The notes beneath the pieces were generated by a model. It saw only the letters and a program-made list of their open reading frames with translations, made no database searches and was not told the DNA's origin. This document shows positions 47,153 to 58,612 of a stretch of DNA of 58,876 nucleotides, piece by piece. The translations under genes were made by a program, and so were the position numbers. The stretch comes from Verrucomicrobiota bacterium. GTDB lineage: Bacteria; Auribacterota; JABMQX01; JAFGEW01. Positions within the stretch are counted from its first letter, which is position 1, and each line of letters opens with the position of its first letter. The DNA lies in assembly GCA_016931415.1 (NCBI GenBank), contig JAFGEW010000040.1, positions 1 to 58,876 on the forward strand. Direction: 5' to 3'.

Positions 47153-47944
47153 ATGACATCCGTACGCGATCGGTTCTGGATCTGGGGACACGAGGCGGGC
47201 AGCCACACGACCGAGGAATGGGGTGTGCCCGAGCCGTCGCGCATCACGCCCGTCGAGGGCGCCTTCTACATGGGCGTGCCCAACGTCATCCTCGTCCGTT
47301 ACGGAGGCAAACCCGAGCCACCCTACCACCAATGCGCCGTGCCATACCGCGCGCTGCGCAGCGTCGTCTGGTCTATCGTCGGCGCCGGCGGCAAGACCGA
47401 CGCCGCCGACCGGGCGCACGTGCTCGATCTCGCCCGCGAACTGCCCAACATGAGCGGCGTGATGATGGACGACTTCTTTCACGACAAACCGGGCGAGAAG
47501 GGCTTCGGAATGCTGTCGCTTGACGAGGTGCGTGCCCTTCGCCGGCAGCTTGTTCTGCCCGACCGTCAGCTCGATCTCTGGGCCGTTATCTACGACCGCC
47601 AGCTCACCCTGCCGCTCGGCGAACACCTCAGCTTGTGCGACAAGGTGACCCAGTGGTTCTGGCGCGCCGCCGAGCTCGAGCACCTCGAACAGACGTTCGA
47701 CCAACTCGAAGCCCTTGCCCCACAGCCGGCTAAGCTGCTTGGCTGCTACATGTTCGATTATGGTGAGCGCCGTCCCATGCCGCTCGACCTGCTCGAGTAC
47801 GAGTGCGAGACCGGCCTCAAGTGGCTCCGCGAAGGCCGCATCGAGGGCATGATTTTCCTCGCCACCTGCATCTGCGACCTCGATCTCGAAGCCGTTGAGT
47901 GGACCCGCCGCTGGATCGCCAAGGTCGGCGGTGAGAAGCTGTGA
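47153..47944 (+). CDS. Hypothetical protein, probable TIM-barrel-like
   Basis: 263 residues, cytoplasmic, no signal peptide. Patterns such as FWIWGHEAGSHTTEEWGVP, ITPVEGAFYMGVPNVILVRYGG, MSGVMMDDFFHD and LLGCYMFDYGERRPMP look like strand-helix units of a sugar-enzyme barrel, with MMDDFF and FDYGE carrying possible catalytic acids. No family is assigned. GAGGGGGAAAGGG lies before ATG 47153. It precedes a GH172 enzyme and an MFS transporter, which suggests a carbohydrate-related role. Confidence 0.7.
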   Translation: MTSVRDRFWIWGHEAGSHTTEEWGVPEPSRITPVEGAFYMGVPNVILVRYGGKPEPPYHQCAVPYRALRSVVWSIVGAGGKTDAADRAHVLDLARELPNMSGVMMDDFFHDKPGEKGFGMLSLDEVRALRRQLVLPDRQLDLWAVIYDRQLTLPLGEHLSLCDKVTQWFWRAAELEHLEQTFDQLEALAPQPAKLLGCYMFDYGERRPMPLDLLEYECETGLKWLREGRIEGMIFLATCICDLDLEAVEWTRRWIAKVGGEKL

Positions 47945-48036
47945 GGGATCCCCGCGACGGGCGATTCCCCTTGCATCGCCATCAATCGGTGCCGATGATG
48001 GCGTCCACCCGACCGGCATGAATGGAGGAGATACTG

Positions 48037-49104
48037 ATGGCGTTCCTGAGCACCTCTTTAGCGGACCTGGCGCGGCTGCGAGACGGCGTGCGGCGGCAGC
48101 GGGTGTCGAGCTATGACGTCAAGGGCGGCAACGCGGACTGGTGGGACGTCGCCGCCGGCGAGAGAAAGACGCTCGCCGAGCTCGACGGGCCGGGCGTCAT
48201 TGCCCACATCTGGATGACGATGCACTCGGAGGACAAGCACGTGCTGCGCCGCGCCGTGCTCCGGATGTACTGGGACGGCGAGACCACACCATGCGTCGAG
48301 ACACCGATCGGCGACTTCTTCGGCATGGGCCACGCGATGTGCAAGGATTTCTGGTCGATGCCGCTGACGATGAGCCCGGACCGGGGCCGCGGGTTCAACT
48401 CGTTCTGGGTGATGCCGTTCTACACGCACGCGCGCATCGAGGTGGAGAATCAGGCCGAGGCGAAGCTCAGCCTCTACTTCTACATCGACTACGAATCGCA
48501 CCGCGCGCTCGAGCCGGGGCTGGGCCACTTCCACGCCCAGTGGCGGCGCGAGAACCCGACCGACGGCTTCGGCGACAAGAAGCCGCCCTCAATCGTCGGA
48601 ATCGACAAGCTGCGCGAGATCTGGCGCACGCCCAACCTCGACGGCAAGGGCAACTACGTCATCCTCGAGGCCGAGGGCAAGGGCCACTACGTCGGTTGCC
48701 ACCTCGACATCGACTGCTTCGAGCCGGACAACAACCTGTGGTACGGCGAGGGCGACGACATGATCTTCATCGACGGCGAGCCGCTCCCGTCGCTGAGCGG
48801 CACGGGGACGGAGGACTACTTCAACACGGCCTTCTGCCCGAGCACGGAGTTCTCGACGCCCTTCCACGGCATCGTGCTCAACAGCGGCGGCGCCCACTGG
48901 CGCTGGGGCGGCAAGAACACCGTCTACCGCTACCACGTCACCGACCCGATCATGTTCGACAAGTCGATCCGGGTGACCATCGAGCACGGCCACGCGAACA
49001 ACCTGTCGTACGACTACTCCTCGACGGCCTACTGGTACCAGACGCTGCCGCACGCGGCGTTCCCGATGTTGCCGCCGCCCGAGGCGCGCCTGCCGAGGGA
49101 GTAG
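48037..49104 (+). CDS. DUF2961 / glycoside hydrolase family 172 enzyme
   Basis: 355 residues with no signal peptide. GH172 enzymes act on alpha-linked fructose or arabinose units (difructose dianhydride and D-arabinan hydrolases). Characteristic stretches: SSYDVKGGNADWWDVAAGE, PGVIAHIWMTMHSED, RMYWDGETTPCVETPIGDFFGMGH, GDDMIFIDGEPLPSLSGTGTEDYFNTAF, where an acidic catalytic Glu is expected, and FHGIVLNSGGAHWRWGGKNTVYRYHVTDPIMF. GGAGGAG precedes ATG 48037. The MFS transporter that follows may import the substrate or export the product. Confidence 0.9.
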   Translation: MAFLSTSLADLARLRDGVRRQRVSSYDVKGGNADWWDVAAGERKTLAELDGPGVIAHIWMTMHSEDKHVLRRAVLRMYWDGETTPCVETPIGDFFGMGHAMCKDFWSMPLTMSPDRGRGFNSFWVMPFYTHARIEVENQAEAKLSLYFYIDYESHRALEPGLGHFHAQWRRENPTDGFGDKKPPSIVGIDKLREIWRTPNLDGKGNYVILEAEGKGHYVGCHLDIDCFEPDNNLWYGEGDDMIFIDGEPLPSLSGTGTEDYFNTAFCPSTEFSTPFHGIVLNSGGAHWRWGGKNTVYRYHVTDPIMFDKSIRVTIEHGHANNLSYDYSSTAYWYQTLPHAAFPMLPPPEARLPRE

Positions 49105-49179: not shown

Positions 49180-50583
49180 GTGTTGTCGGCCATGGCACAC
49201 AAGGCGAAACCCAACGCGAATCAGACCGGCATTCCCGTGCGGCTTTCCCCCGTACGCGTGCTGCTCGACCGCTACTTCGCCCGGCGCGTCGTCTATCCCT
49301 GGGAACGCCCGGGCATCATGCGCAAGCACATCTACACGGGTGTCCTGGGCAGTATCTGGATGGAGCTGATCTTCGGCCTGCTGTTCGTGTACTTCGGCAC
49401 GAGCATCGGCCTGACCCGGTTCCAGTGGGGAGTGCTGGCGGCGATTTCATCGTGGTTGCTCTCAGCACAGCTCGTTTCGGCCTTGATCACGCAACGCACG
49501 GGCCGGAGAAAGGCTCTCTGGTTCTGGTTCTCCATCACCGACCGCGCACTGCGGCTTGCAGGCATTCTGCTCGCGTTCTGGCTCTGGCAGGCCGGCCTGC
49601 CCTGCGCCGCCGTCGTGTTCATCGTGGCCATCTGCCTGTCGGACCTGTTCAGCACCATGGCCTCGCCGCCGTGGCTCTCCTGGCTGGCCGACATCATCCC
49701 GCCCGACGAGCATGGGACCTTCTGGGGCCGCCGCTCAGCATGGATCTCGTTGGCGAGCGTGGCGGTGATCATCGCTGCCGCCGTGATCGCCAAGTGCACA
49801 CCAGATCGCCACAAGCTCGACGTCATTGCCGGGCTCTTCGCCGTCGCCACCATCATCGGCATTGCCGACCTGCTGATCCACGGCACGATCCCCGAGCCGC
49901 AGATGATGTTGCCCGCGCGCAGCCACTTCTGGCGGCAGATGCTCGAGCCGTTGCGCGACCGCGCCTTCCGGCCTTGGCTGACGTTCAACGTGGCATGGAC
50001 CTTCTCGATGACGCTCGGCGGCGGCCTGGCCGCGCTCTATTTCCTCGACGAGCTCGACTTCAAGAACGACTTCGTGGGCGGCGTCATCGTGGTGACCTGC
50101 ATCCCCTTGCTCGGTGCGACGGTGTCGGGCAAGTGGTCGGGCCGGCTCGTGGACCGCCTCGGCGCCAAGCCCGTGCTGTTCTGGGGCCATATGGCGTGGA
50201 CGATTCTCCCGCTGCTATGGCTTCTGGCGACACCCGGGACAGCCCTCGTGATGGTGGCCACATCAAGTGTGGCCGCCGGCGTGGGCTACACGGCGGCGAC
50301 GACGGCCGCCAACAAGCTCATCGTTCGCGTGCCGCCGCCCGAACACTGCCCGATCTACACGGCCGTGTCGACGAGCCTTGCGAGCATCGTCGGGGGCATC
50401 GCCGTGCTGGTCTCCGGCGCCCTCCTGAGCGCACTCAGCGGCTGGAGTCTCACTATTGCCGGGCGGTCTTTCGGCGCGTTCCACCTGCTGTTCGCCATCT
50501 CGTTCCTCCTGCGCTTCGCCTCGACCGTCCTCCTCGTGCCGCGGGTCTGTGAACACACCCAGCGCACAACCCCCGCGTCATGA
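49180..50583 (+). CDS. MFS transporter (copy 1)
   Basis: 467 residues with about 12 transmembrane helices. The N-terminal cytoplasmic segment contains LDRYFARRVVYPWERPGIMRKHIYTG, nearly repeated in the second transporter at 57.2 kb. The loop ITQRTGRRKALWFW is the MFS motif A region after helix 2, and SGKWSGRLVDRLGAKPVLF lies between helices 8 and 9. The start is uncertain: GTG 49180 has AGGGA at short distance, ATG 49192 has none closer. Drug, sugar or phosphate-ester specificity cannot be told. Confidence 0.9.
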   Translation: MLSAMAHKAKPNANQTGIPVRLSPVRVLLDRYFARRVVYPWERPGIMRKHIYTGVLGSIWMELIFGLLFVYFGTSIGLTRFQWGVLAAISSWLLSAQLVSALITQRTGRRKALWFWFSITDRALRLAGILLAFWLWQAGLPCAAVVFIVAICLSDLFSTMASPPWLSWLADIIPPDEHGTFWGRRSAWISLASVAVIIAAAVIAKCTPDRHKLDVIAGLFAVATIIGIADLLIHGTIPEPQMMLPARSHFWRQMLEPLRDRAFRPWLTFNVAWTFSMTLGGGLAALYFLDELDFKNDFVGGVIVVTCIPLLGATVSGKWSGRLVDRLGAKPVLFWGHMAWTILPLLWLLATPGTALVMVATSSVAAGVGYTAATTAANKLIVRVPPPEHCPIYTAVSTSLASIVGGIAVLVSGALLSALSGWSLTIAGRSFGAFHLLFAISFLLRFASTVLLVPRVCEHTQRTTPAS

Positions 50584-50797: not shown

Positions 50798-52252
50798 ATG
50801 CGCACGCCGATATGGCTTCGAATCCTGATCGCGGTTGACCTGCTGGTCATCGTCGCCGCGCTGGCCATCGGCTGGTTCTCGAGCGAGATCGCCGGCCGGG
50901 TCGTCGAGGAACATCTGATCCGGCAGGCCTCTCGAAAAACGGGCGAATTCCTCGAAGGCCAGAACCTTCCCTTCACCGACACACTCATGGGCAGCCTCAA
51001 CCGCATGCACGGCACCCACTTCGTCACCGCTCGCGAGCGCGACCGCGCCGTGCTTGGCACAAGCTTCCCCACCGAGTTGCGCGAGGAGCTCGATGGGCGC
51101 ACCGACTCGCTAGGAGCCGCCGGTGTCGTCAGCCTCGGCGACGTGCGATACCGCTACGATTCGCATCTTCTCGAGATCCGGACCGAGCCGTACGGGCGCG
51201 AGACCGAACCCGCCAGACTCTATGCGTTCGTGCCCCAGGACGAGTTTGACGACGCGCGCACCCTGGCCGCGCGCCGCATCGCCAAGGCAACCCTCCCGGT
51301 GCTGGCCTCCGCCAGTCTCATCGCCATCGTCCTTGCCCTCACCGTCGCTCGACCCATCAGCAAGCTGGCCGCCAGAATGCAGGCGACCGAAACGGGTCGC
51401 CTCGACCGGCTCGCCAACAGCGAGTCAACGCCCACGCCAGACGGAGCCCGCCTGCGCGGACCGCGCGAGGTTGCTGAGCTCGCGTGCGCCTTCGACCGTC
51501 TCATGGCCCGCCTCGCGCAGGCCCAGACCGATCTGGCGCGTCACGAGCGGCTGGCGACGTTGGGGCGCGTCGCGGCCAGCGTCGTGCACGAGCTGCGCAA
51601 TCCGCTCAGCGGCATTCGGATGAACGTGCGCGTCCTCCAGGAGGAACTGGGCGACCGCGACATTCACAGCGAGAGCCTCGATGCAAGCCTGCGCGAGATC
51701 GAGCGTATGGGCGTCTATCTCGATGAGCTGACGGATCTCGCCTCCGCCCCCGGCGCGGCCGCCGAGTCCTTGCCGCTCCGGCTCGGGGCGCTGGCACTCG
51801 TTCGTCTCGAGGCGTTGGCCGGCTCGGTGCTCGCCGTGTTCTCGGGCCGATGCCGGCACGCGGGAGTCAAGGTCGTGACCGGCACCGATCCGCCGGTGCC
51901 GCACGTGCGCGCCGATGCGGAACGATTGCGCCAGGTCTTGATGAACCTGATCGTGAACGCGCTCGACGCGATGCCGTCGGGCGGAACGCTCGACGTCTCG
52001 GTGGGCTTCACGGGCGGCCGCGTTCGGTGTACGATCACCGACACTGGCGCGGGCATCCAGGCCTCCGAGCGCGAGAGCCTGTTCGAGCCGTTCGTCACGA
52101 CGAAGAGCCACAGCGCGGGCCTGGGCCTCTACGTGTGCAAGCGCATCGTCGAGGCGCACGGCGGTGCGATCGGGTGCCACAATACGGAACGCGGCGCGGC
52201 GTTCTGGTTCGAGATTCCGACAGCCGTGGAACCCGACGAACCGGGGAGCTGA
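50798..52252 (+). CDS. Sensor histidine kinase of an NtrB-type pair
   Basis: 484 residues. TM1 about 7-26, an extracytoplasmic sensor of about 135 residues, TM2 about 165-186, HAMP, then HisKA with phosphoacceptor His264 in RVAASVVHELRNPLSGIRMNV. The HATPase domain has the N-box MNLIVNALDAMPSGG, G1 ITDTGAGIQ and G2 SAGLGLYVCKRIVEAHGG. The periplasmic sensor has no recognised fold. AGAGGGA precedes ATG 50798. It is 7 bp upstream of the response regulator, so they are cotranscribed, and it senses the signal for the sigma-54 locus. Confidence 0.95.
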   Translation: MRTPIWLRILIAVDLLVIVAALAIGWFSSEIAGRVVEEHLIRQASRKTGEFLEGQNLPFTDTLMGSLNRMHGTHFVTARERDRAVLGTSFPTELREELDGRTDSLGAAGVVSLGDVRYRYDSHLLEIRTEPYGRETEPARLYAFVPQDEFDDARTLAARRIAKATLPVLASASLIAIVLALTVARPISKLAARMQATETGRLDRLANSESTPTPDGARLRGPREVAELACAFDRLMARLAQAQTDLARHERLATLGRVAASVVHELRNPLSGIRMNVRVLQEELGDRDIHSESLDASLREIERMGVYLDELTDLASAPGAAAESLPLRLGALALVRLEALAGSVLAVFSGRCRHAGVKVVTGTDPPVPHVRADAERLRQVLMNLIVNALDAMPSGGTLDVSVGFTGGRVRCTITDTGAGIQASERESLFEPFVTTKSHSAGLGLYVCKRIVEAHGGAIGCHNTERGAAFWFEIPTAVEPDEPGS

Positions 52253-52259
52253 ACGCAAC

Positions 52260-53714
52260 ATGACCGACGCGCACGCCGGCAAAAGCATGCTTATCATCGA
52301 CGACGAGGAATCGATCTGCCTCGCCTTCCAGCGCTTCTTCGAACGCCGCCAGTGGCAGGTGCGGATCGCCTCGTCGGCGGCCCAGGGCTTTGTCGAGTTC
52401 GCCGCGTCCCGCCCGTCCATCGTCTTTCTGGACATCCGCCTGCCCGACGCCGACGGGCTCGATGTGCTCAAGCGGCTGCGCGCCATCGCCCCGCAGGTCC
52501 CCGTCATCATGATCACGGCCTACGGCGGGATCGAGGCCGTCGTCGGTTCTTTCGAGGGCGAAGCGTTCGACTACCTGCCCAAGCCCATCGACCTCGATCA
52601 GGCCGAACGGCTTGTCGCGCGGGCCCTCGAGGCCGGCGGCAGCGGCGCGGCTCAAAGCGAACACACCGTCGAGCGCAGCAACGAACCCGTCGAGCTGATC
52701 GGATCCTCCCCCGCCATGCAGCACGTGTTCAAGCGGATCGCCGTGCTCTCCAAGAGCGACTGCAGCGTGCTCATCCTGGGCGCCACGGGCACCGGCAAGG
52801 AGGTCGTCGCCCGCGCCATCCATCGCCACAGCCGGCGCGCGGCCCGGCCGTTCTTCGCCGTGAACTGCGGCGCGCTTCCCGAAAACCTGGTCGAGAGCGA
52901 GCTGTTCGGCCACGCGCGCGGCGCGTTCACGGGCGCCGACGCCGACCGGACCGGCAAGTTCGAGGCCGCCGACAGCGGCACGCTGTTTCTCGACGAGGTC
53001 GGCGAACTCCCGGGCGCGGCGCAGGTCAAGCTCCTCCGCTTCCTCGATTCGCAGACCATCGAGCGGGTCGGCTCGACCGAACCGCGCCAGCTCGATGTGC
53101 GCGTCATCGCCGCGACAAACCGCGACCTGCCCGCCGACGTGCGCACCGGCCGGTTCCGCGCCGACCTCTATTACCGGCTCGCCGTCGTCCAGGTCGAGGT
53201 ACCGCCGCTCGCCGAACGGCCCGAAGACATCATTCCGCTCGCCCGGCACTTCCTCGCGCACGGCCTCAAGGCAAGCCGTGGCCCCCAGCGAGGCCGCGCC
53301 GTACCGCAACTCGCCCCCGAGGCCGAGCACGCCCTGCTCCGGCACACATGGCCGGGCAACGTCCGCGAGCTCCGCAACGCCATCGCCCACGCGCTCGCTA
53401 TCGCGCCCGGCGGCCGCATCCGCGTCGAGGACCTTTCGGAGGCCGTGCGCTCCCAAGTCGCGCGTGACGCCCGGCCTGACGCCGGGTACAACGATCTCGC
53501 CAGGCAGTACATCAAGAGCGTCTCCGGCTCTGGCGGCGATCTCTATGCGCGCGCCATCAGACCGATCGAAGCGGCCCTCATCCGCTCGGCCATGAAGCGA
53601 TGCCGCGGCAACCAGTCCGAAGCCTCCGCCCTGCTCGGGCTGCATCGCAACACGCTCCGCAAGAAACTGCGTGAGCTGTTCAGTCCCGGGGACCTCGACG
53701 ACCTCGCACAATAG
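52260..53714 (+). CDS. Sigma-54-dependent NtrC-type response regulator
   Basis: 484 residues. Receiver: acidic pair Asp14-Asp15, phosphoacceptor Asp58, Lys108 in YLPKPID. AAA+ domain: Walker A GATGTGKE (174-181), GAFTGA sigma-54 contact loop (221-226), Walker B TLFLDEVGEL (241-250), arginine region RTGRFRADLYYRL. C-terminal Fis-type helix-turn-helix GNQSEASALLGLHRNTLRKKLREL. All elements for sigma-54 activation are intact. The gene ends 116 bp before a near-consensus sigma-54 promoter, the evident target. Confidence 0.96.
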   Translation: MTDAHAGKSMLIIDDEESICLAFQRFFERRQWQVRIASSAAQGFVEFAASRPSIVFLDIRLPDADGLDVLKRLRAIAPQVPVIMITAYGGIEAVVGSFEGEAFDYLPKPIDLDQAERLVARALEAGGSGAAQSEHTVERSNEPVELIGSSPAMQHVFKRIAVLSKSDCSVLILGATGTGKEVVARAIHRHSRRAARPFFAVNCGALPENLVESELFGHARGAFTGADADRTGKFEAADSGTLFLDEVGELPGAAQVKLLRFLDSQTIERVGSTEPRQLDVRVIAATNRDLPADVRTGRFRADLYYRLAVVQVEVPPLAERPEDIIPLARHFLAHGLKASRGPQRGRAVPQLAPEAEHALLRHTWPGNVRELRNAIAHALAIAPGGRIRVEDLSEAVRSQVARDARPDAGYNDLARQYIKSVSGSGGDLYARAIRPIEAALIRSAMKRCRGNQSEASALLGLHRNTLRKKLRELFSPGDLDDLAQ

Positions 53715-53718
53715 GCGT

Positions 53719-53751
53719 GCACGCCTGCACAATGTCTGTGCATTGGCGTGC
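53719..53751 (+). promoter_or_regulatory. Palindromic enhancer (UAS) candidate
   Basis: Left arm GCACGCCTGCACA (53719-53731), spacer ATGTC, right arm TGTGCATTGGCGTGC (53737-53751). The arms pair fully apart from a two-base bulge. It lies about 80-110 bp upstream of the -24 box, the normal distance for an NtrC-type enhancer. A role as a terminator for the regulator gene is possible, but no T tract follows. Confidence 0.65.
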
Positions 53752-53829
53752 CCCGCATCTGGCCCGCGTCATAGGCCTCTTGGACCGCAAGCTGCTGGCA
53801 TACAACCTCTTCCGTCTCGACCGCCGGCA

Positions 53830-53845
53830 TGGCACCTGCCTTGCA
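53830..53845 (+). promoter_or_regulatory. Sigma-54 (-24/-12) promoter
   Basis: TGGCACCTGCCTTGCA. It matches the consensus TGGCACG-N4-TTGCW at all but the seventh position, with the GG and GC dinucleotides at exact spacing. Transcription would start near 53857 and run into the TonB-dependent receptor gene. No such motif was noticed elsewhere in the window. Confidence 0.85.
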
Positions 53846-53848
53846 CAT

Positions 53849-53869
53849 GCACACGCCAGACACGTGTGC
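53849..53869 (+). promoter_or_regulatory. Inverted repeat near the predicted sigma-54 start site
   Basis: GCACACG (53849-53855), spacer CCAGACA, CGTGTGC (53863-53869): seven perfect base pairs. Its half site resembles the GCACGCC/TGCACA arms of the upstream palindrome. It could be a second regulator site or an mRNA hairpin. Confidence 0.45.
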
Positions 53870-54038
53870 CCTCGCGAGGCCCGGCCGCCGGCCCAAGCCG
53901 TTCCCGATACAACGCTATGGCGGCCGATCGAGCCAGCGCAGCGGGCGCTCACCCGGATATCGCCTCCTACGAGGCTGCCATGGTGTTCGAGGCGGATCAC
54001 GAACCAACGACACGGAGAGAGGGAAGGAAGCGATCACG

Positions 54039-56183
54039 ATGTTGCGAGCACCTGTTCTTGCCGTCGGCGCGTTGATACTGACAGCGCTCTGCATGCTGAT
54101 GGCATGCGCCGCCGCCCTAGGCGCCGAGACGGACACGACGACGGAGCCGACATGGCTCGACACGGTCTTCGTCACCGCCACACGCATGGCCAAGGCGATT
54201 CTCGACACGCCGAACACGGTGCAGTCGCTCACGAGCACCGACATCCAGGCGCGCACGCTGTCGCGCTCGACGCCCGAGGCGCTGCGCGAGATGCCGGGCG
54301 TGATGGTCCAGAAGACCTCCAACGGCCAAGGCTCGCCCTACATGCGTGGCTTCACGGGATTCCGCACACTGTTCCTTCTCGACGGAATCCGACTCAATAA
54401 CTCCGTCTTTCGCGATGGGCCAAATCAATACTGGAACACGGTGGATCCGTTCAGCATCAGCCGGCTCGAGGTCGTCAAAGGCCCCGGCTCGGTCACCTAC
54501 GGCAACGACGCGATCGGCGGCACGGTCAACGCGATCTCGCGCGGCCCCGAAGGCTACGGCGACGGGCTGCGCACGAGCGAGCGGCTCTTCTACCGCGTCA
54601 GCAGCGCCGAGAACTCGCACATTGCGCGCTTCGACTTCGACCTGACCCAGGACGCCGACTACGGCCTGCACGTCGGAGGCACGTGGAAGCAGTTCGGCGA
54701 CGTCGAGGCCGGCGGCGACGTCGGCCGCCAACGCAAGACGGGCTACGACGAGTGGGACGCCGATCTCAAGTTCGAGTACTTCCTCGATCCCGACACGGTC
54801 GTGAGCGTCGCCCACCAGCATGTGGACCTCGACGACGCGTGGCGCACGCACAAGACCATCTACGGCATAAGCTGGAAAGGCACGACTATCGGCGACGAGC
54901 TCGAGCGCAGCCTCGACCAGAGCCGTGGCCTCACCGCCGTCCAGTACCACTCGACCGATCGCGCCTCGTTCATCGACGCAATCTCGGCCAGCCTCTCGTA
55001 CCACGTGCAGGAGGAGTCGCAGTTCCGCATCCGGACCGACGAGCGCTACGACCGCCAGGGCTTCGACGTCGGCACGGTCGGCGCCTCGATCCAGCTCGAA
55101 ACGCCGAGCGCGATCGGCCGCTGGGCCTATGGCATCGAGTATTATCACGACGACGTCGACTCGTTTGCCGACAAGCTCAACGCCGATGGATCAGTCAAAT
55201 CCTCGAGCATTCAAGGCCCTGTCGCCGACGACGCGACCTACGGCCTGCTCGGTGTGTTCGTCGAGGACGACGTCCAGGTGCACGACAAGGTCAACCTGAT
55301 CTTCGGCGCGCGCTACACGTATGCGAGCGTCGACGCCGGCCGCGTTGAGGACCCGATAACGGGCGGCGCGATCTCGCTCGACGAGACCTGGGACACGGCC
55401 GTCGGCAGCGCGCGCGTCCTCTACGCCCTCGGCGAGGCGGAGCAGTGGCGCCTGTTCGGCGGCGTCTCGCAGGGCGTCCGCGCGCCGAACCTCTCGGACC
55501 TCACACGCCTGGACACGGCGCGCTCGAACGAGATCGAAACGCCCTCGCCTAACCTCGACCCCGAGCAGTTCATCTCGTACGAGATCGGCATCAAGGGCGC
55601 GACCGAAGCGTGCACGACGCAGCTCGCCTGGTTCTACACGGACATCAGCAACATGATCGTGCGCACGCCGACCGGCCGCGTCATCGACGAGAGCATCGAA
55701 GTAACCAAGCGCAACGCGGGCGACGGCTACGTCCAGGGCGTCGAACTCTCGGCCAGCTACCGGTTCCATCCGCAACTGAACGCGGTCGGCTCGGTCGCCT
55801 GGACCGACGGCGAGGTGGACGCCTACCCGACGTCCGAGCCAGTCGAAGTGCGCGAGCCGCTCAGCCGCCTCATGCCGACAACCGGCATCCTCGGCCTGCA
55901 CTGGGACCACCCGGCAAAGGGCTGCTGGGCCGAAGCGCTCGTGACGATCGCCGACCGGCAGGACGACCTCTCCTCCGACGACCGGCGCGACACGCAGCGC
56001 ATCCCGCCTGACGGCACACCGGGCTACACGGTGCTCACTGTGCGCGGCGGCTGGGAGGTCGCGCGCCACTTCACTGTAACAGCCGCCGTCGAGAACGTGA
56101 CGGACGAGGAATACCGCATCCACGGCTCGGGCCAGAATGAGCCGGGCCGCAGCTTCGTGCTCGCTCTCGACTACACATTCTGA
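54039..56183 (+). CDS. TonB-dependent outer membrane receptor
   Basis: 714 residues. Signal peptide about 1-28 and TonB-box-like DTVFVTATRM near the mature N-terminus. Plug domain with STPEALREMPGVMVQ, MRGFTGFRTLFLLDGIRLNN and ISRLEVVKGPGSVTYGNDAIGGTVN, then a 22-strand-type barrel ending in the outer-membrane signature SFVLALDYTF with terminal Phe. It imports siderophores, vitamin B12 or other large solutes; the ligand is unknown. GGGAAGGAAG precedes ATG 54039. The sigma-54 promoter drives it, and a tonB gene follows at 144 bp. Confidence 0.96.
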   Translation: MLRAPVLAVGALILTALCMLMACAAALGAETDTTTEPTWLDTVFVTATRMAKAILDTPNTVQSLTSTDIQARTLSRSTPEALREMPGVMVQKTSNGQGSPYMRGFTGFRTLFLLDGIRLNNSVFRDGPNQYWNTVDPFSISRLEVVKGPGSVTYGNDAIGGTVNAISRGPEGYGDGLRTSERLFYRVSSAENSHIARFDFDLTQDADYGLHVGGTWKQFGDVEAGGDVGRQRKTGYDEWDADLKFEYFLDPDTVVSVAHQHVDLDDAWRTHKTIYGISWKGTTIGDELERSLDQSRGLTAVQYHSTDRASFIDAISASLSYHVQEESQFRIRTDERYDRQGFDVGTVGASIQLETPSAIGRWAYGIEYYHDDVDSFADKLNADGSVKSSSIQGPVADDATYGLLGVFVEDDVQVHDKVNLIFGARYTYASVDAGRVEDPITGGAISLDETWDTAVGSARVLYALGEAEQWRLFGGVSQGVRAPNLSDLTRLDTARSNEIETPSPNLDPEQFISYEIGIKGATEACTTQLAWFYTDISNMIVRTPTGRVIDESIEVTKRNAGDGYVQGVELSASYRFHPQLNAVGSVAWTDGEVDAYPTSEPVEVREPLSRLMPTTGILGLHWDHPAKGCWAEALVTIADRQDDLSSDDRRDTQRIPPDGTPGYTVLTVRGGWEVARHFTVTAAVENVTDEEYRIHGSGQNEPGRSFVLALDYTF

Positions 56184-56327
56184 CAGATGTGAGGACCGCA
56201 TTCGCGCCACGTCAGGGAGACGCTTTGGCAGCCGAATGGCGCGCGGGTGTCCCCGCGGCCGCCGAGACGCCGAATCTACGGCCGGACCCCAGTGGCGGGG
56301 ACAGATGCCGGAGAACACTGAGGACTG

Positions 56328-56999
56328 ATGCGACGTGCATGGCTCATCGCGTTGGCATTCTCGCTGACCGCCCACGCGGCCATCGTCGTCGTGTGCCTGC
56401 AGAAGCTCATCATCCCGGCCCGCGTGGAGATCGCGCCCGGCGACGGTGGCGATCAGCCTTTCCACGTCGCCCTCGTCGAGGTCGCGGTGCGCGACGAGTT
56501 GACCGCCGCGCGCCGTGACGAGCTGACCGTCGCACCGCCCGCGCCCGACATCGTCGTGGAACCCGATCCTCCCGATGAGCTCATCGTGTTCAAGGCCCCG
56601 CCCGACGCAGAGCCCAAGACCATCACGGGCGACAACACTGCAACCGCCGAGTCGGAGCGCCTCCCGCTCGTGTCACAAGCCGCGCCGGAGAAGCCATCGG
56701 CCGACGCCGGCGCGCCCGGCACGCGGGCCGAGCCGCTCTCGCGGCGCAACCGGCCGCCCGCCTACCCGGTGATCGCCCGGCGCCAGGGCTGGGAAGGCAC
56801 CGTGGTGCTCGACGTCGACGTGCTCGCCGACGGCCGCGTCAGCGCCGTAACCGTCGCCTGCTCGTCGGGCCACGAGGTGCTCGACCGCGCCGCGACCGAC
56901 GCCGTGCGCCGCTGGCTGTTTCGGCCCGCGATGCGCCTGGGCGAACCGATTGCCGATGCCGTTCGCGTGCCCGTCCGCTTCCAGCTCGTTCCGCGCTAG
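56328..56999 (+). CDS. TonB family energy transducer
   Basis: 223 residues. One N-terminal transmembrane helix (ALAFSLTAHAAIVVVCLQKLI) with the characteristic SLTAHA start, an acidic/Pro-containing periplasmic linker, and a C-terminal TonB domain (about 140-223) with PPAYPVIARRQGWEGTVVLDVDVLADGRVSAVTV, GHEVLDRAATDAVRRWLFRPA and VPVRFQLV. It passes proton-motive force from ExbBD to the adjacent receptor. GAGG precedes ATG 56328. No exbB/exbD is present in the window, so it relies on a distant ExbBD pair. Confidence 0.95.
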   Translation: MRRAWLIALAFSLTAHAAIVVVCLQKLIIPARVEIAPGDGGDQPFHVALVEVAVRDELTAARRDELTVAPPAPDIVVEPDPPDELIVFKAPPDAEPKTITGDNTATAESERLPLVSQAAPEKPSADAGAPGTRAEPLSRRNRPPAYPVIARRQGWEGTVVLDVDVLADGRVSAVTVACSSGHEVLDRAATDAVRRWLFRPAMRLGEPIADAVRVPVRFQLVPR

Positions 57000-57241
57000 T
57001 GCTTCCCTGCAGGAGATTGCACGAGGCCATCAGGACATCGGGGCCGGGAGGCCCCGTCGAAGGTGCCTCCGCAGATCCAACGGGAAAAACCTCGCATTCG
57101 GCCGGTTTCTGCTACCATGCCCCCCGGACCAACGGCCCGCCGCGTCCGGGCGCGGCACTCTGCCACAGCATCGCGCCGCCCGGAGAAATCACGGTATGAG
57201 GCGGCGCCCGTGCTTGCAGCATCAGCTTACGTGCACCGACC
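57000..57241. other. Intergenic region before MFS copy 2
   Basis: 242 bp with no gene. I see no clear promoter or terminator. Confidence 0.4.
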
Positions 57242-58612
57242 ATGAATGGAGTCAGTGAAAGGGAGGCAGGCCCTCCGGGGCGGCCCGTCGTTTTACGGGC
57301 GTGGCTCGACCGCTACTTCGGCCGACGCGTCGTCTACGCGTGGGAACGGCCGAGCATCATGCGCAAGCACATCTACACGGGCGCGATGGGCAACGTCTGG
57401 GCCTCGCTCATCAGCGGCATCTTCTTCGTCTACTTCGGCACCACGATCGGCCTGACCCGCTTCCAGTGGGGCGTCATGGCCGGCATCTCGTCGTGGCTGA
57501 TCGCCACGCAGCTCCTCTCGGCGCTGCTGACCCAGCGCACCGGCCGGCGCAAGGTGATCTGGTTCTGGTTCGCCATCGGCGAGCGCAGCCTGCGCCTCCT
57601 CGGCATTCTGATCGCGTTTGCTCTCTGGCACACGGGCTGGCCCCACGCCGGCGTCGTGCTCATCGCGGCCATCTGCCTGGCAAACCTCTGCGGCACGATG
57701 GCCACGCCGCCGTGGCTGTCGTGGCTCGCCGATATCATCCCGCACGACGAACACGGCGCGTTCTGGGGACGGCGCACCGCGTGGATCGCCGTGACGGTCG
57801 TCATTGTGGTCGTGGCCGCCGGCTTGCTCGCCGACAAGATCCCGCCCGCCTATAAGCTCCAAGCCATCGTCGGCATCTTCATCGTCGCCACGGTCGTGGG
57901 CATCCTCGACCTGGTGATCCACGGCACGATCCCTGAGCCCTCGATGCTGCTGCCCGTGCGCAACCACTTCTGGCAGCACGTGCTCGAGCCGCTGCGCGAC
58001 CCCGCGTTCCGGCCCTGGCTGCTGTTCAACGTGGCGTGGACGTTCGCGATGACCATCGGCGGAGCGCTCGCCACGATCTACTTCCTCGACGAGCTCCACC
58101 TGCGCGAGAACTTCTTCGGCGGCGTCATCGTCGTCACGTGTATCCCGCTGCTCGGCACCTTGCTCTCGGGCAAGTGGTCGGGCAAGCTCGTGGACCGCTT
58201 AGGCACAAAGCCCGTGCTCTACTGGGCCCATATCGCGTGGGCGCTGCTGCCCGTGTTCTGGTTTGCCGCGTCGCCTGCGACGGCGCTCGTCGTGCTCGGG
58301 ATCTCGAGCGCGCAGGCCGGCGTGGCGTGCACGGCAGCGGCCACGGCGGCCAACAAGCTCATCACCCGCGTGCCCCCGCCCCAGCTCTGCCCGATGTACA
58401 CCGCCGTCTCGACGAGCCTCGGGAGCATGGCCGCCGGCCTCGGCGCACTCGGCGCCGGCAGCCTGCTGGGCGCGCTCGGCGACTGGCATGTCACGACCAG
58501 TGCCGGCACGTTCGGCGGTTTCCACGTACTCTTCGCGATCTCGCTTGTGCTCCGCCTCGCAGCAGCCCTCGTGCTCGTGCCGCGCCTGCACGCCGGCTCG
58601 CCGAAGGAATAA
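57242..58612 (+). CDS. MFS transporter (copy 2)
   Basis: 456 residues with about 12 transmembrane helices, homologous end to end to the transporter at 49.2 kb. Shared landmarks: LDRYFGRRVVYAWERPSIMRKHIYTG, TIGLTRFQWGVMAGISSWL, TQRTGRRKVIWFWF, PPWLSWLADIIPHDEHGAFWGRR, IHGTIPEPSMLLP, and SGKWSGKLVDRLGTKPVLYW. By eye well over half the residues are identical. ATG 57242 has no Shine-Dalgarno site, and the N-terminus is shorter than in copy 1. Its stop lies inside the 131-bp tandem repeat. Confidence 0.9.
   Translation: MNGVSEREAGPPGRPVVLRAWLDRYFGRRVVYAWERPSIMRKHIYTGAMGNVWASLISGIFFVYFGTTIGLTRFQWGVMAGISSWLIATQLLSALLTQRTGRRKVIWFWFAIGERSLRLLGILIAFALWHTGWPHAGVVLIAAICLANLCGTMATPPWLSWLADIIPHDEHGAFWGRRTAWIAVTVVIVVVAAGLLADKIPPAYKLQAIVGIFIVATVVGILDLVIHGTIPEPSMLLPVRNHFWQHVLEPLRDPAFRPWLLFNVAWTFAMTIGGALATIYFLDELHLRENFFGGVIVVTCIPLLGTLLSGKWSGKLVDRLGTKPVLYWAHIAWALLPVFWFAASPATALVVLGISSAQAGVACTAAATAANKLITRVPPPQLCPMYTAVSTSLGSMAAGLGALGAGSLLGALGDWHVTTSAGTFGGFHVLFAISLVLRLAAALVLVPRLHAGSPKE

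Follow-up and report, generated by a model that had tools for sequence, protein, structure and literature searches.

A probable sigma-54 switch for a TonB-dependent receptor gene: sensor kinase, NtrC-like regulator and tandem enhancer recur together in planctomycete genomes

We report that a TonB-dependent receptor gene in the window (the whole stretch of DNA analysed, 58,876 nucleotides) is very probably controlled by a dedicated sigma-54 switch, consisting of a sensor histidine kinase, an NtrC-type activator, a tandem enhancer and a -24/-12 promoter in front of the receptor. The gene content, the sequences of the sites, their recurrence together with orthologous kinase/regulator pairs in other genomes and the presence of rpoN were read directly from the sequences. 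Moreover, the data lead us to favour, by a modest degree, that the module (the kinase with its NtrC-like regulator and the tandem enhancer of NtrC-box type) represents a dedicated type of two-component sigma-54 circuit, a family so far undescribed, that occurs in planctomycetes and in the small phylum to which the window belongs. Such a family would control outer-envelope functions, namely the TonB receptor with tonB, proteins with squalene-cyclase repeats and an ABC transporter, and would probably do so through ligand-induced positive feedback on import.

The unit covers positions 50798-56999, with all genes on the + strand in the order kinase, NtrC-type regulator, TonB-dependent receptor and TonB. 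The sensor histidine kinase (50798-52252, +) has Pfam HisKA and HATPase domains and a HAMP match slightly under the cut-off, and its layout is an N-terminal helix, an extracytoplasmic PAS-like sensor of ~110 residues, HAMP, HisKA and HATPase. For the sensor there was neither a Pfam match nor a PDB sequence match, and an AlphaFold model of the sensor alone gave a PAS-like fold (pLDDT 84) with a histidine kinase PAS domain as the top fold match (3cwf; E 8e-4, with a weak TM of 0.46). The modelled fold would be consistent with sensing of a small molecule or of the envelope state.

The response regulator (52260-53714, +) was annotated, on the basis of its reading frame and Pfam, with a receiver, a sigma-54 AAA+ domain carrying Walker A/B motifs and GAFTGA, and a Fis-type HTH, i.e. 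with the features of group I NtrC-family enhancer-binding proteins; the original prediction of an intact NtrC-type activator is thereby borne out. Its AAA+ sequence is ESELFGHARGAFTGA, an AAA+ lid was also found (Pfam), and the HTH ends in LGLHRNTLRKKLREL. The best NCBIfam model is ntrC (TIGR01818), and because the score of 478 bits is below the equivalog cut-off of 558.6 the regulator is, by this measure, NtrC-like and is not classed as a true NtrC.

Downstream are the TonB-dependent receptor (54039-56183, +; Pfam plug and barrel), the N-terminus of which, MLRAPVLAVGALILTALCMLMACAAALGAE, looks like a signal peptide, and a TonB-like energy-transducing protein (56328-56999, +; TonB_C, and TIGR01352 above cut-off), in the order that had been predicted. 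Identity as a heme receptor was considered and rejected: the nearest NCBIfam model, TIGR01785 (heme/hemoglobin receptor), gave 201 bits with a cut-off of 316.85, and the FRAP/NPNL-like stretch of the receptor is without His. The unit is flanked by two MFS genes (49180-50583 and 57242-58612), which had been described as nearly identical; with 63.8% identity between the proteins and 75% between the DNA sequences they are, on these values, paralogues and not near-copies. On the 5' side of the first MFS gene a 263-aa protein (47153-47944), without any Pfam or NCBIfam match, adjoins a DUF2961 protein (48022-49104). At the contig end (58593-58876) a 131-bp unit is present in 2.2 copies (93% match); the assembly probably stopped here at an interspersed repeat.

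The sigma-54 promoter TGGCACCTGCCTTGCA (53830-53845, +) matches TGGCAC-N5-TTGCW with 0 mismatches (GG at 53831-53832, GC at 53843-53844), where a near-perfect site had been predicted, and it is the sole 0-mismatch site in the 58.9-kb window. The genome from which the window derives (G000; 4.06 Mb, 134 contigs, 98.9% complete) also carries rpoN, the sigma-54 gene on which the original prediction depended, so that both the TGGCAC-N5-TTGCW sequence and its sigma factor are found in the same genome. Pattern searches of the whole 4.06-Mb genome identified 17 perfect TGGCAC-N5-TTGCW sites vs 7 for the reversed pattern, and for this reason a perfect -24/-12 match alone is suggestive and not proof. 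Based on the -12 GC at 53843-53844, +1 is predicted near 53856, which would give a leader of ~183 nt to the ATG at 54039. The start near 53857 in the original prediction is practically the same, while the footprint region proposed with it (53849-53869) misses the hexamers.

Upstream of the promoter, the main enhancer site TGCACAATGTCTGTGCA (53726-53742) is a perfect TGCAC-N7-GTGCA of 17 bp with NtrC-box geometry. A second site, CGCACAATAGGCGTGCA (53705-53721), 21 bp upstream of the main site, matches TGCAC-N7-GTGCA in 9/10 positions and overlaps the last codons and the stop codon of the regulator gene. In view of this second site the enhancer is, as judged from the DNA, a tandem pair of 17-bp sites with centres 21 bp apart. 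The 33-bp imperfect palindrome (53719-53751; outer arms GCACGCC/GGCGTGC) originally noted here does exist, but only its inner 17 bp is conserved elsewhere, the outer arms not being conserved in the compared loci, and the second site had been overlooked. Enhancers of the glnA type have paired sites ~120-145 bp upstream of the start, and the site centres in the window are at about -143 and -122 relative to the predicted +1; being two helical turns apart they would, by analogy with NtrC, allow a pair of dimers to bind the same face of the helix. In its 17-bp geometry the window enhancer matches the E. coli NtrC box TGCACCAnnnTGGTGCA (PMC8743547).

Within the window's own genome, the enhancer-like matches at the other perfect -24/-12 sites are all ≤7/10, vs 10 and 9 in the window, and none of three other plug-domain receptors has the enhancer; the circuit therefore looks dedicated to the window's single receptor unit. 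On another contig of this genome (C27) a second TonB receptor (L153:1755-3776) is located near an NtrC-like regulator (L153:5243-6586) with GAFPGA replacing GAFTGA; neither the enhancer nor a convincing -24/-12 site was found at this receptor locus.

Relatives of the receptor were obtained from 80 loci, mainly in Verrucomicrobiota, Lentisphaerota, Kiritimatiellota and Planctomycetota, and 77 upstream regions were compared. As far as sequence relationship goes, the receptor family is widespread in PVC bacteria. TGCAC-N7-GTGCA is present in 3/77 upstream regions (the window and loci L036 and L097), and the same three have the top sigma-54 scores among the 77 (18.0, 18.7 and 15.9, respectively); other half-site spacings gave 0 to 2 scattered matches. 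That all receptor relatives are sigma-54 controlled was rejected, given that 74/77 upstream regions are without the enhancer and that the neighbouring regulators in verrucomicrobia are without GAFTGA. The enhancer-bearing receptors do not form one clade in the tree, and since, in addition, most relatives lack the enhancer, the enhancer-receptor pairing is not universal; a single origin of the enhancer-bearing receptors is possible.

The -24/-12-like sites of L047, L051 and L055 were discarded, being without an enhancer, and the L047 site sits within the upstream reading frame. Also discarded was L028 (Desulfobacterium), which has a kinase, a GAFTGA regulator, the receptor and a good -24/-12 site, and from which the window-type enhancer is absent; a long inverted repeat (L028:9740-9800), possibly a leader hairpin, is situated right 3' of the sigma-54-like promoter of this receptor. 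Members of the receptor family also adjoin regulators without GAFTGA (L051, L067, L074, L080, L082 and L105; verrucomicrobia) and short regulators consisting of a receiver and a Fis-type HTH (L029 and L043; planctomycetes). With these neighbours, the receptor family has three kinds of regulatory output beside it; its two-component control seems to be recurrent, the predicted sigma-54 version being one among several.

For a search based on DNA only we used the pattern TGCAC-N7-GTGCA, 80-110 bp, TGGCA-N6-TTGC. In 397 planctomycete genomes, from the class holding L097, this gave 12 matches in 10 genomes and 0 for the reversed pattern; a slightly altered pattern matched in 2 of 392 genomes spread across the planctomycete phylum, and the pattern search of 388 genomes of the Verrucomicrobiota, the phylum of L051, gave 0 matches. 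In six genomes (G044, G045, G474, G602, G530 and G565) the enhancer is within ~150 bp of orthologues of the kinase and the regulator. Two of these, G044 (with L036) and G045 (with L097), had supplied the search pattern, while the other four are new. The kinase orthologues are full-length, sensor included, and 38-43% identical, and the regulator orthologues beside the same enhancer are 49-60% identical with a nearly invariant HTH stretch (LGLHRNTLRKKLREL). In all six loci the enhancer is followed, at 80-107 bp, by a -24/-12 promoter. The gene order is as in the window in G474 and G602 (kinase, regulator, enhancer, promoter, target); in G044, G045, G530 and G565 it is divergent, with kinase and regulator facing away from the promoter. 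Judged by these positions, the enhancer tracks the kinase/regulator pair rather than the regulator gene's 3' end.

Alignment of seven loci on the main site placed the second site 21-22 bp away in 7/7 (five upstream, two downstream), with a mean match of 8.3/10 compared to 4.2 ± 0.9 (SD) over all spacings of 5-69, and in none of the loci does another secondary match score higher. The window and the six genomes have in common the orthologous pair, the enhancer, a second site at 21-22 bp and a -24/-12 site at 80-107 bp. This recurrence supports the originally predicted combination of an NtrC-type two-component regulator, enhancer, -24/-12 promoter and TonB receptor, and by way of its 17-bp core the palindrome proved to be conserved in related genomes.

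The compared genomes are draft assemblies. In G044 the contig with the kinase and regulator genes (C84) breaks off near where the receptor gene begins; the receptor is on another contig, together with an upstream region that is 86% identical and a 49-bp piece of the kinase gene. This is one locus copy, split or chimeric, and G044 was counted once. Among the remaining matches, that in G469 (L145:4634-6715) combines this enhancer with a -24/-12-like site in front of a secretin gene; inspection of ~6 kb per side (13 kb surroundings) revealed no orthologues of the kinase and regulator. The matches in G401 (two near-identical copies within coding sequence), G583 and G585 resemble chance occurrences and were set aside. 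A separate kinase search of 392 planctomycete genomes, with four candidates scored per genome, yielded G045 alone and does not imply absence elsewhere.

Could a true NtrC bind the sites, so that the receptor gene would belong to the nitrogen-starvation response and the adjacent two-component pair would act elsewhere? The NtrC-box geometry of the enhancer would fit, as would the 478 bits that the regulator itself has with the ntrC model, yet we consider this unlikely: no protein at the ntrC cut-off was found in the own genome and the six others searched, where the window regulator is the own genome's top ntrC scorer, the site accompanies kinase/regulator orthologues in six genomes, and the kinase, a membrane sensor that has an extracytoplasmic domain, is not NtrB-like. 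Very unlikely is that the palindrome, instead of binding a protein, forms the terminator hairpin of the regulator gene. It does start ≤12 bp after the stop codon and a hairpin is possible, but there is no T-run 3' of it, and the enhancer's tracking of the kinase/regulator pair argues against a terminator, with the 17-bp core upstream of divergent kinase genes in G044, G045, G530 and G565 and the distances to the -24/-12 promoter and to the second site kept. Least likely of all are chance motifs and a receptor that uses another promoter (sigma-70, ECF or Fur-controlled), for although the motifs are short and the 17 perfect sites vs 7 reversed imply that some occur by chance, when the 700 bp in front of the receptor were Markov-shuffled 20,000 times, the promoter pattern turned up in 0.06% of the shuffles, the palindrome in 0.08% of them and the two together in 0/20,000 (joint probability <1/20,000), and the motifs recur with orthologous genes in six genomes. 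An additional basal promoter for the receptor is possible.

The target belongs to the receptor family in the window, G044, G045 and G474. A TonB homologue follows the receptor also in G044 and G045, and in G474 it is followed by a TonB-like frame, without Pfam match, that stops at the contig end. Other targets were found for 3/6 orthologous circuits: a squalene-cyclase-repeat protein in G602 (L148:3717-4973), an ABC ATPase, an FtsX-type permease and, as third gene, a squalene-cyclase-repeat protein (L143:491-1750) in G530, and in G565 a protein without Pfam match that is probably secreted. Squalene-cyclase-repeat proteins also adjoin the receptor in L028, L035, L037, L042 and L047. Being neighbours in these five loci and targets of the same circuit in G602 and G530, squalene-cyclase-repeat proteins and the receptor are linked via position and regulation.

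In 44 genomes of the window's own phylum, strict thresholds revealed no other species with the receptor or the regulator. The tetranucleotide profile of 50798-57000 has a correlation of 0.98 with a sample of the remaining genome, and on this ground contamination or recent import of the window copy was rejected. With the receptor and regulator otherwise absent from the phylum genomes and a host-like composition, an old horizontal acquisition of the locus is the likely, and simplest, reading.

As a dedicated sigma-54 switch the circuit may be pictured as follows. A ligand or the envelope state would reach the PAS-like extracytoplasmic sensor of the membrane kinase; our guess is that what is sensed is either the ligand imported by the receptor itself or the state of the envelope. 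By what is known of the protein families, the kinase would phosphorylate the neighbouring NtrC-type activator, which would bind the tandem sites (53705-53721 and 53726-53742) and oligomerise. DNA looping and ATP hydrolysis via the GAFTGA loop would then open sigma-54 RNA polymerase at 53830-53845, and the expected transcript would cover the receptor and probably also tonB behind it.

The mechanism as such is textbook; the novelty lies in the module, its target and where it occurs. A single receptor appears to have an energy-demanding and strictly activator-dependent sigma-54 promoter dedicated to it, and distant genomes contain the module as well. Because the enhancer is distinctive enough for a plain-DNA search, its regulon can be collected in uncultured genomes, and the other targets provide a handle on the ligand of a receptor family present in Planctomycetota, Verrucomicrobiota, Lentisphaerota and others.

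Control of TonB receptors is usually described in terms of Fur, ECF-sigma or SusR/AraC-type regulation, and in the openly accessible literature that we searched we found no dedicated sigma-54/NtrC circuit for a TonB receptor. The window circuit resembles NtrB/NtrC, AtoSC and ZraSR in having a regulator with receiver, AAA+ (GAFTGA) and Fis HTH, paired upstream sites and a -24/-12 promoter. It differs from them in the extracytoplasmic PAS-like sensor of the kinase, in its target (a TonB receptor and tonB), in a regulator below the ntrC equivalog cut-off and in enhancer sites 21 bp apart. In Paracoccus denitrificans, loss of the NtrC-family two-component system NtrYX alters the levels of several TonB-dependent transporters (PMC9409073); NtrYX is a global regulator with many targets, whereas the window has a dedicated enhancer/promoter beside one receptor. 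The sections drawn on here of a study covering Planctomycetota predict many NtrC-family regulators and sigma-54 promoters in this phylum (PMC12316311); in these sections TonB is mentioned for Flavobacteriia only, sigma-54 control there being called unconfirmed, and the predicted regulons they present include no Planctomycetota TonB-receptor circuit. In the PfeS/PfeR-PfeA system of Pseudomonas aeruginosa, the receptor for a ferri-siderophore is induced when the imported compound is sensed in the periplasm, and the likeness to the window lies in an inner-membrane kinase with periplasmic sensing and in two-component control of a TonB-dependent receptor (PMC8001512). The window circuit departs from it in its NtrC-type regulator and in the predicted use of sigma-54. 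PfeR is an OmpR-type regulator. PfeS/PfeR-PfeA may thus serve, as an analogy only, as the closest working model for the circuit in the window.
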